Shown here: positions 5,061-40,616 of the stretch, in pieces
How the letters are laid out: each line of letters begins with the position of its first letter
How positions within the stretch are numbered: position 1 is the stretch's first letter
Source: Methanobacteriota archaeon
GTDB taxonomy: Archaea > Thermoplasmatota > Thermoplasmata > UBA10834
Direction: 5' to 3'
Assembly (NCBI GenBank): GCA_020725925.1
Contig: DYTN01000012.1
Location: 1 to 46,529 of the forward strand
DNA length: 46,529 bases
The notes under the pieces: model-generated
The model's database searches: none
What the model saw: the letters and a program-made list of their open reading frames with translations, nothing else
What the model was told of the DNA's origin: nothing
Translations under genes and position numbers: made by a program

Positions 5061-5243
5061 TTACGATTGCCATTTGGCCAAGTCATTACTTGGGTGCGTT
5101 CGACGGGGGAACAGTGTAGCAGGGTACAGTATAGGGATTTCAGTCCTCTCATTTGCTATGCGGACAATCCTTTCTCCTCCAATCTTGCGATCCACACAGG
5201 GCGGATTCTTGGATTTCACGGCCAAGAACTGGAGGAAATTGGG

Positions 5244-7850
5244 ATGAACAGAGGCAGAATTGGGGGCATGAGAAAGGTAGGTTGTGTGATTCTTTGCATT
5301 GTGATGTGTTGCACAGCAGTTGCTGTGCTCGGTGGGCGGAGTTCCGCCCAAGGGGTACTCGTAGACCTGGGCACACTCGGTGGAACAACCAGCTGGGCAT
5401 ATGACATAAACGGTTTGGGACAGATTGTAGGGCAAAGTGGTTATGCGACTGCTTCGGCGACTTCTTCCTTGTGGACTCCTCCCGGGTTCGTGATTGACCC
5501 AAAGGATACCAACAGTGACGGAGTGCCGGATCTCTGGAATGAGGATGTTAGTCCCGCGGATGGCGCGAATGACTTGATGCACCCCATTGGGGACCTTGGC
5601 GGGAATGGGGCTCAGCCTTGGGCCATCAACAGCATGGAGTCGGAAGTGACTGGCTTCTCGCTTACGCCAACCGAGGAGCGTAGAGCATACTTGCTCACGC
5701 CTGAGGATTCTAACTGGGACGGAGTTCCAGATACTTGGAACAAGGATGCAAACGGGGATGGCGTCAACGACCTAATGCAGGACCTTGGGACTCTCGGAGG
5801 AGCAAACAGCTGGGGGCTGGACATCAACAATCTGGGAATGGTGGTTGGAGCCAGCGAAATCGCACCCGAATCCTCAGAACCTCATGGCTTCTGCAGTCTA
5901 GAAACGACACTTCAGGTCAAACACATTCTCCCACCAAACGGTGGCAATCCTGGCCTGTGGGATATCTCTCCCGTATTGGGGTATAGTGAATCATGGGACG
6001 GGTACGTCGTCTTCTATGAGATGGAGACACCATATCAATACGATCAGGACTTTCTTGCCATTACCGAATTTGATGAGAGCGGTCTTGTCGATACGTTAAT
6101 CTTCCATGGTCCTCCTGGAGGCGATTTGCAGGTTGGTGATGTCGCTGGTGACGTCGTCGTGTGGAATCAGACTATCTATAGCGGTGAACAGTCGATCAAC
6201 TGGGTGACCATTGGCGGACCCCAGGGAATCATACCGGGAGGGCAGGGGTCAGTTCGCATGTGTGGCGACACCCTCGTCTGGTGCACTGAAGTTGAATCGC
6301 AATCGCTGGTCTGGATTTACGATATCGGCTTTGCTGCGACATACCCTGGCGTATATATGCCCGAATGCATCTCTGAGATCGAGAACGGAGTCTATTGGCC
6401 TTCGGGCTATTCTGTGGACATTGGGGACCAGTATGTTGTGTGGAAACAGTACGATGAAGGCCAATATGACATATACGCATTCGACTTGAGAAGTTATGTT
6501 GAGCCTTGGTGGGGCAGGCCCCATGATATCATTCAGGTCACTTCTACGCCCGGGACCGACGAGGATGAACCGGCGACAGAAGGGCCGCGGATCGTGTGGC
6601 AAGCCCAAGACATAGGAGCCGCGAGCACGCGTATTGAAGCATGCAACATGGACACTGGCAAGTTCTTCACCGTCGTCGACAACGGCGCTGGCAATTACAG
6701 ACCCAGCATTTCTGGCGATTTGATAGCATACGATTCGACATTCACAGGCAACCCACTCACAGACAACCTTGATGTATGGGTATTCAGAATTTCCGACCGC
6801 TGTCACTATCAGGTTACTACTGATTGGTTTGACCAGTACTCAAACGACATATTCGGCAACTTCATTGCATATGTCGACGCATACGACACGTATTCTATAC
6901 CCACATATCCGTTCTTTGCCTGGTATACGACTATCCGAGTTGACTCGCTCACGTTTGTGAATCCGATGATGGACCTTGGTACCCTCGGAGGTGCCGAGAG
7001 CATTGCGTTGAGCATAAATGATCTGGGGGATGTCGTTGGGTGGTCTAGCACAAAGGAAAATGCCATCCACGCATTCTTGATCCAACCGCGTGACCTGGAC
7101 AGCGATGGCACCCCCGAAACGTGGAACCGAGACCTCAACCGTGATGGAGTCAATGATTTCATGCAGGATTTGACCCCTCTTGGTCCTCATAGCAGCGCGC
7201 AAAGCATAAACAACGCGAGGCAGATTGTTGGGTCGATGTACTATTTGCCCAACACTCATGCATTCAAGTGGGATGGCGGCTCAATGATGGATCTTGGCAC
7301 ACTGGGAGGGGACTACAGCGAGGCAATCAAGAACAATGACATGTGTAAGGTTGTAGGGGTCAGCAAGACGTCCACGGGCGCGATTCACCCATTCTTGTTC
7401 GATGGTAACACAATGAACGATTTGGGGTTCTCCGGTTATGCTAGGGGCATGAATGACCTGGATCAAGTCGTCGGATTCTCTTTTACAGCAGGAGCGGTCC
7501 GAGCCTGGTTATGGTTGTCGAAAGAGACTCCTCTGCCCCCGAGCGACTTGATTGATGACCTTAGGGATGACATCGATGACCTCGCTCCCCCTGGTCCAGG
7601 CCAATCGCCCGAACCGGGCGAGCCACCACCGGTCCTGACCTGGGGACAGGCGAACAGCCTGAACCATAAGTTGGATGCCGCCCTGTATCAGTGGCTAGTG
7701 AGGGAGAACGTGAAGGCTGCGACAAACATCCTAGGCGCCTTCGTCAACGAGGTCGAGTCCCTGGTGAGTGAGGGCGTGCTGACGGAATATCTGGGGAGCC
7801 TGCTGATCGGCAAAGCCAACGCGATCGCAGCGGCGATACAACCTTCTTGA
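5244..7850 (+). CDS. secreted HAF-repeat / beta-propeller / FIMAH-domain protein
   Basis: Large exported protein of about 868 residues. Start ATG 5244 follows GGAGG (5231-5235) with an 8-base gap; an in-frame opening further upstream lacks this signal. Residues 1-36 form a signal peptide (basic start, hydrophobic core, ending SSAQG). HAF repeats of the form DLGTLGG...INxLGxVVG occur before and after a central region, about seven in all. Central residues (about 235-585) have repeated WIYDIG/YAFDLRS/VWVFRIS blades resembling TolB-like propellers. Three Asp-rich loops (for example SNWDGVPDTWNKDANGDGVND) look like calcium-binding dockerin/thrombospondin-3 elements. The last 100 residues, after a Pro-rich linker, match the FIMAH module (KLDAAL...AATNILGAFVNEVESL...LIGKANAIAAAI). 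No membrane anchor is seen, so it is probably secreted or cell-wall bound. A/T-rich codon use and the att-like repeats indicate acquired DNA. Confidence 0.85.
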   Translation: MNRGRIGGMRKVGCVILCIVMCCTAVAVLGGRSSAQGVLVDLGTLGGTTSWAYDINGLGQIVGQSGYATASATSSLWTPPGFVIDPKDTNSDGVPDLWNEDVSPADGANDLMHPIGDLGGNGAQPWAINSMESEVTGFSLTPTEERRAYLLTPEDSNWDGVPDTWNKDANGDGVNDLMQDLGTLGGANSWGLDINNLGMVVGASEIAPESSEPHGFCSLETTLQVKHILPPNGGNPGLWDISPVLGYSESWDGYVVFYEMETPYQYDQDFLAITEFDESGLVDTLIFHGPPGGDLQVGDVAGDVVVWNQTIYSGEQSINWVTIGGPQGIIPGGQGSVRMCGDTLVWCTEVESQSLVWIYDIGFAATYPGVYMPECISEIENGVYWPSGYSVDIGDQYVVWKQYDEGQYDIYAFDLRSYVEPWWGRPHDIIQVTSTPGTDEDEPATEGPRIVWQAQDIGAASTRIEACNMDTGKFFTVVDNGAGNYRPSISGDLIAYDSTFTGNPLTDNLDVWVFRISDRCHYQVTTDWFDQYSNDIFGNFIAYVDAYDTYSIPTYPFFAWYTTIRVDSLTFVNPMMDLGTLGGAESIALSINDLGDVVGWSSTKENAIHAFLIQPRDLDSDGTPETWNRDLNRDGVNDFMQDLTPLGPHSSAQSINNARQIVGSMYYLPNTHAFKWDGGSMMDLGTLGGDYSEAIKNNDMCKVVGVSKTSTGAIHPFLFDGNTMNDLGFSGYARGMNDLDQVVGFSFTAGAVRAWLWLSKETPLPPSDLIDDLRDDIDDLAPPGPGQSPEPGEPPPVLTWGQANSLNHKLDAALYQWLVRENVKAATNILGAFVNEVESLVSEGVLTEYLGSLLIGKANAIAAAIQPS

Positions 7851-39168: not shown

Positions 39169-39198
39169 GAAACGTCGCTTTTCCCCGTCTAGGACGGA

Positions 39199-40554
39199 TC
39201 AACCCTCTCGCTCGCCCTTGCCGCGCCTGCCCATCGCGCTCCACGCGAGTGCCGCTGCTGAGAGGAGTATCGCGATCAGCGCAATGGTGACCACGAGCAT
39301 GTCGACGCCTTCGTCCTCCTCGGGCTCGACATCGATCGCATCGATCGCCCTGAGCTGTCTGTCCTCCGCCTTGATCAGATCGAGGTCGTGGTTGACTTCG
39401 GCCCAGCCGTACCAGTGCGTGTAGTCAGGGCTGAGGTGGTATGCCCCCTTCCAGGTCGTGACCGCGTGGTACTTGTACATCTTGAAGAAGAGCGTCTCGA
39501 TCCCGCTGGTGTTGGAGTACAGCTGCTGCCCCATGAGCGTCAGGTTGAAGCCCGTCACCGGGTTTGCAGCACGGTCCTCGGGCATCGGGTCAAGGAGCCC
39601 GTCGTCATACAACGCTATCAGGATGTCCCTGGCCTCGCCGACGAGCCTGTCGGTCTCGTTCTTGACCGCGTCCGCGGTCATGAGCTTCTCCTGCGCGAAC
39701 GAGGTCGAGTGGCACTCGCCGCACACGGAGACCATCTCCGCCCGGTTCTGCACGAATGTGTCCGCTGAGATGTTGCCGATCGGATAGTATTGCGGGCTCC
39801 CGGCAATCACAGCGCCGTTCGACACGCCGCCGATCGTCATCCCGTACCCGACATCGTGCGTGCCCTCAGGCATGTGACAGGTCACGCACACCGGTGCGGT
39901 GAAGGTGTCCGTGTCGCTCCAGTTCCACGAGTCGCCCTCCAACGAGTACATCACGCCATGCTTCGACGACAGGTAGGCCTCGATCTGCGGGTGGTCCGGG
40001 CCCATGTGGCACGTGCCGCAGCTCTCTGGCTTCCTCGCCTCCTCCTTGTCGAAGGAGTGCCTCGTGTGACACGAGTCGCACTTCCCCCTGCTGCCGTCCC
40101 AGTAGACGTAGCCTACGTTGTGGCACTGCTCGCACATCGCGCTCCGGGTCTCCTCGGGCAGGTCGATGTACCTCGCGGTCGCAGTCATCTTGGTCCAGCC
40201 CAGAGCGTGCTTGCTGGAATTGAACTCGGTCACCTGCTGGTAGTGGCACGGGGCGCAATCCCCCGCGCTCGGCCTGGTGGTTATCGTGAAGCCGTTGTAG
40301 GAGACTGCATCCTCGTCAGTCGCCTCCGCATGATGGCAGTTCGTGCACCGGACACCTGCTCTCCCCATGGCGCTGTCGTTGAAGTCCTGGACGATGAACG
40401 GTGTGGCGCTCCTGTGGCACGCCCTGCATGCGGCATCGTCGGGCACCTGGAGGGCCGAGGCGTCTCTGGAATCGTCATCGGAGGTTCACATGAGAAGCAG
40501 AACTGCCGCCGCCAGCAGGCCCGCAAGAGCGCACAGCTTCCAGACTGAAACCAT
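39199..40554 (-). CDS. octaheme cytochrome c, hydroxylamine-oxidoreductase-like, interrupted by an in-frame TGA
   Basis: The uninterrupted frame 40446-39199 encodes 415 residues with eight CxxCH haem sites (CRACH, CTNCH, CAPCH, CEQCH, CDSCH, CGTCH, CVTCH, CGECH), a YHLSPDYTHWYGWAE segment like that of hydroxylamine oxidoreductase-family octahemes, and one C-terminal membrane helix followed by a basic tail. These enzymes oxidise hydroxylamine or hydrazine, or reduce nitrite/hydroxylamine, outside the cell membrane (established knowledge); direction here is unknown. Such a protein needs export. Upstream in the same frame, ATG 40554 with GGAG five bases before it gives a signal-peptide-like segment (VSVWKLCALAGLLAAAVLLLM), but a TGA at 40486-40488 separates it from the haem part. 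No cytochrome maturation genes are in the window. Confidence 0.85.
40486..40488 (-). other. in-frame TGA between signal peptide and haem domain
   Basis: Minus-strand codons read ctc atg TGA acc tcc gat. Upstream is a complete hydrophobic signal segment with a Shine-Dalgarno; downstream is the haem protein. The next start (GTG 40446) would produce a protein without an export signal. The TGA is followed by ACCTC, the same bases that follow the TGA in the D-aminoacylase frame. Confidence 0.8.
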
Positions 40555-40600
40555 TGTCTCCTACGCCCCGCCCCCTGAGCGACGCTACCCAAAACCCCCA

Positions 40601-40616
40601 CGAGAGTATAAAATAC
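40601..40616. promoter_or_regulatory. TATA element between cytochrome and EamA genes
   Basis: AGAGTATAAAATACCT stands out in the divergent intergenic region. It is about 50 bases before the cytochrome ATG on one strand and about 75 before the EamA GTG on the other and could serve either. Confidence 0.5.

Follow-up and report, generated by a model that had tools for sequence, protein, structure and literature searches.

On the minus strand of the 46,529-nucleotide stretch of archaeal DNA analysed here (the window), positions 40554–39199 hold a gene for an HAO-family octahaem cytochrome that reads MVSVWKLCALAGLLAAAVLLLM, then an in-frame TGA, then TSDDDSRDASALQVPDDAACRACH... A TATA-like box, TATTTTATAC (40606–40615), which is probably the promoter of the gene, lies about 52–61 bases 5′ of the ATG, and a Shine–Dalgarno-like AGGAG (40558–40562) precedes the ATG by 3 bases, a close spacing. 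The ATG at 40554 and 21 more codons, mostly hydrophobic, make up a 22-residue signal segment (40489–40554) that is followed directly by the TGA (40486–40488). Downstream, around 428 open codons encode the cytochrome body (39202–40485; assigned from translation, homology and alignment), which runs without further interruption to a terminal stop that is likewise TGA (39199–39201). Because the reading frame is the same on both sides of the interruption, one substitution suffices as an explanation, and the gene bears no other decay, with neither a second stop nor a frameshift. Finding such a signal before a stop is beyond chance: an equally hydrophobic 15-residue stretch within 30 codons upstream was seen for 2 of 2165 stops across the six frames of the window, and none of 20,000 Markov-resampled 22-codon stretches was both open and equally hydrophobic.

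The body contains eight CXXCH haem motifs, read from the translation and the alignment: CRACH (40414–40428), CTNCH (40333–40347), CAPCH (40243–40257), CEQCH (40120–40134), CDSCH (40066–40080), CGTCH (40006–40020), CVTCH (39874–39888) and CGECH (39709–39723). All eight are in register with those of relatives, every Cys–Cys–His column of the alignment being invariant. Residues 32–286 of 415 fit the PF13447 profile (1.2e-35; 123.5 bits, cut-off 21.9), and the body also matches the solved hydroxylamine-oxidoreductase-like protein PDB 6t5e (4.7e-36). Thus, both the family profile match and the eight motifs are present; the export signal, which is usual in the family and lies outside the PF13447 profile, is separated from the body by the TGA. 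Near the C terminus, a predicted transmembrane anchor, MLVVTIALIAILLSAAALAW (39241–39300), is followed by a basic tail, a layout that the alignment shows in most archaeal relatives as well. These observations bear out the original prediction that a signal with its own Shine–Dalgarno sequence and start codon shares one frame with a body of eight intact haem motifs, the two being parted by a single TGA.

Alignment to PDB 4fas places a His (39415–39417, in PDYTHWYGW) at the site of Tyr467 of Nitrosomonas HAO, so that the Tyr cross-linked to haem 4 is absent. Together with a score of 101.5 bits in the NF052343 test for oxidative HAO and hydrazine dehydrogenase, well below the cut-off of 900, this sets the protein apart from both of those enzymes. 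A His rather than a Tyr at the cross-link site has been reported for enzymes of the reductive HAO-like type (PMC12758564; for reductive octahaem cytochromes lacking the Tyr cross-link, see also PMC8940962). Judged by its sequence, the cytochrome is an HAO-family member of the reductive type, and the His at the cross-link site suggests a nitrite- or hydroxylamine-reducing role.

An alignment-based scan of genome contigs recovered relatives of this protein, whereas a single-protein scan recovered none. Nearly all of 89 such relatives, bacterial and archaeal, have a signal that continues in frame as far as haem 1, and the interruption is therefore not the normal state of the family. Isolated breaks occurred in 2 of the 89 relatives, one a TGA and the other a frameshift. 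The first is an HAO-like gene of Candidatus Syntrophoarchaeum (L055), with one in-frame TGA at 2831–2833 between haems 4 and 5; the second, in a Bacteroidetes MAG (L100), is frameshifted where the signal meets the body, at haem 1.

The draft genome to which the window belongs (2.04 Mb in 73 contigs, 93% complete, its assembly containing stretches of unknown bases) has two neighbouring cytochrome-c-assembly genes, close to which lies another multihaem cytochrome with an intact N terminus. External haem attachment is therefore available in this genome, and a cytochrome-c-assembly match was found in six of eight same-genus genomes, this one included. The earlier argument that, deprived of the signal, the haems could not be attached outside agrees with these Ccm genes and with the family architecture; the C-terminal anchor and basic tail would then hold the body on the inner, cytoplasmic face of the membrane. 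Translation could in principle begin after the TGA, yielding a cytoplasmic protein with a different role, and an in-frame GTG at 40446 does lie upstream of haem 1. This GTG, however, is the only in-frame start codon between the TGA and haem 1 and lacks a Shine–Dalgarno sequence, the retained eight CXXCH motifs and anchor with basic tail require the body to be outside, and no signal-less relative was established among the 89 (one, L076, is cut by the end of its contig, and L100 is frameshifted). We consider an internal start very improbable.

We then asked whether the TGA might be translated, by leaky readthrough, a suppressor tRNA or selenocysteine insertion, to give some full-length exported cytochrome, as would fit the intactness of all functionally needed parts on both sides of it. 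TGA is, however, the commonest stop in the window, ending 26 of 40 predicted genes, and it also ends the cytochrome gene itself. Selenocysteine was rejected because no SepSecS gene was found in the genome, at its 93% completeness, and tRNA-Sec gave matches only below the cut-off, at the positions of an ordinary tRNA-Arg and an ordinary tRNA-Cys gene. A suppressor tRNA or reassigned TGA was likewise rejected: none of 41 tRNA matches had a UCA anticodon, in a set that is incomplete (tRNA-Trp itself is missing, and nine intron-like genes are called less surely). Recoding of the TGA is thus not supported.

A second gene in the window, encoding an amidohydrolase (PF07969; 3503–1896, minus strand), also contains one in-frame TGA (3110–3108), across which its Pfam domain extends. 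Nine orthologs have an Arg, Lys or Thr codon at this site, so no one special residue is called for, which further argues against translation of the TGA. Both in-frame TGAs of the window lie in the octamer TGAACCTC (40488–40481 and 3110–3103, both on the minus strand). In 869 kb of the genome, ACCTC comes next after 0.19% of TGA triplets, or about 0.2% for a given TGA; the shared context was spotted after the fact and from two cases only. Rare as it is under pure chance, this shared context is the sole hint keeping readthrough alive, and it could equally mark a context of mutation or error. Of the 54 occurrences of TGA followed by ACCTC in the 869 kb, only those in the cytochrome and amidohydrolase genes have a coding context, and the motif was rejected as a readthrough signal on these grounds. 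That ribosomes read through UGA when ACCUC follows, giving the full-length cytochrome and the full-length amidohydrolase encoded on the same contig, with context-dependent readthrough controlling cytochrome export, seems to us exceedingly doubtful; translation of the cytochrome TGA by any route is unlikely.

Breaks elsewhere in the genome also speak against TGA-specific decoding. A codon-usage scan of the 869 kb, a method that misses genes of atypical composition, returned candidates that were mostly tandem genes; the few true interruptions beyond the window were all TAG. They include a single in-frame TAG in an aldehyde ferredoxin oxidoreductase gene (C63:20031, minus strand; L209/L210) and a TAG in an MFS transporter gene near a run of unknown bases (C54:26242, minus strand; L208). 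A possible 1157-residue membrane-anchored surface protein (C18:96797, plus strand; L197) has a TAG at residue 441 of its stop-to-stop frame. In the same genus, the amidohydrolase ortholog of G007 (L214) carries an in-frame TAG at a different place, and the EamA match of G004 contains one TGA and one TAG. As the scan gave TAG as well as TGA breaks, we rejected a genome-wide, TGA-specific form of interruption; lone nonsense changes, TGA and TAG alike, form an ordinary background here. The stop in the cytochrome gene therefore looks like a nonsense change of the ordinary sort, whether real or introduced as an error in the consensus, rather than special decoding. The three alternatives originally put forward (readthrough, a newly dead gene and a wrong base) were the right set, from which readthrough recedes given the failure to find a selenocysteine route or a UCA-anticodon tRNA, the prevalence of TGA as a stop and the presence of TAG breaks.

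If the assembled consensus has the wrong base here, the organism carries an intact gene and makes a normal exported octahaem cytochrome. A draft assembly that is split into 73 contigs and has unknown bases in places leaves room for such an error, as do the recurrence of lone stops in otherwise intact genes of this genome and genus and the two isolated breaks among the 89 public relatives, and an error would yield a sequence identical to that of a genuine mutation. Random errors, however, should strike housekeeping genes equally, whereas the interrupted genes found in this genome are all of accessory type; indel errors would also be expected, although the scan covered in-frame stops only. We regard a consensus error as a serious possibility, if a tentative one. 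The restriction of the interruptions to accessory-type genes fits real gene loss.

The genomic setting points to a gene gained within this lineage. Within the genus, the gene row of mevalonate kinase (mvk), a PPAT fusion, a small Cys-rich protein, an EamA transporter and PheT is conserved, and the cytochrome is absent between the small protein and EamA in G003, G004, G005 and G006, in which the junction was read across (for G002 and G007 the stretch read covered only the EamA end). The genome holds no second copy, and a search of 18 genomes from the same genus or family gave no match, so the ancestral codon cannot be read from close relatives. In a tree, the cytochrome falls on a long branch among bacterial sequences, apart from the HAOs of its own class, and the gene was likely acquired laterally. 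Its codon usage and GC3 are like those of neighbouring genes, implying either long residence in the species or a donor that resembled it. An A(A/C)(T/C)GTCGCTTTTC-like element is present in the window at 39171–39183 (plus strand); it is kept in the genus (L032–L037) in the interval separating EamA from the small Cys-rich protein, and the cytochrome sits between this element and EamA. Elsewhere in the window, a 927-residue open reading frame (5067–7850, plus strand) has repeats with a recurring MxDLGTLGG and is probably exported.

Together, these results lead us to favour, with moderate confidence, a real allele, killed recently, of a reductive-type HAO-family octahaem cytochrome gene that was acquired by lateral transfer. 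The protein would formerly have been exported by its N-terminal signal and held by its C-terminal anchor, with haems added outside by Ccm. A single base change would then have turned the codon following the signal into TGA, which, functioning as a stop, would limit the product to the 22 residues of the signal, with no haem protein made. We infer that the TGA is real in cells and is not read through. The cytochrome allele would thus be a null allele or pseudogene of recent origin and would count among several single-stop genes of accessory type in the genome. If real, the change must be very recent, given the absence of other decay, the native-like codon usage and the retained promoter-like element. 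If the stop is ordinary, it shows on a small scale how an archaeal lineage gained and lost a nitrogen-cycle-type enzyme, and it cautions against taking lone in-frame stops in draft genomes, where they are background, as a sign of recoding; were the TGA read through, the gene would offer a rare example of UGA readthrough in archaea, located at a signal peptide.

The body is at best about 42% identical to any sequence found. This value is reached, over the whole body, with the nearest sequences, HAO-like proteins from bacterial MAGs (L050–L053; Chromatiales, Deltaproteobacteria, Myxococcota and Planctomycetota), which have continuous open reading frames and N termini that differ from that of the archaeal cytochrome. 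HAO-like proteins from archaea of the same class or phylum (G033, G043, G052, G068, G134, G162, G430 and G435) share the signal, octahaem body and C-terminal anchor, but they occupy another branch of the tree, are unbroken and have extra insertions in the body. In one such protein (L131), the signal is followed by an acidic linker resembling the one found here; a lipobox Cys at the TGA position, which the linker had suggested, was rejected because L131 has the same layout without a Cys. With Kuenenia HAOr (PDB 6h5l) and campylobacterial Hao, the archaeal cytochrome shares PF13447, eight CXXCH motifs, a sequence-family match and the lack of a Tyr at the cross-link site (PMC12758564, PMC8940962), whereas it differs from them in its C-terminal membrane anchor, in the His at the key site and in a signal broken by a TGA.
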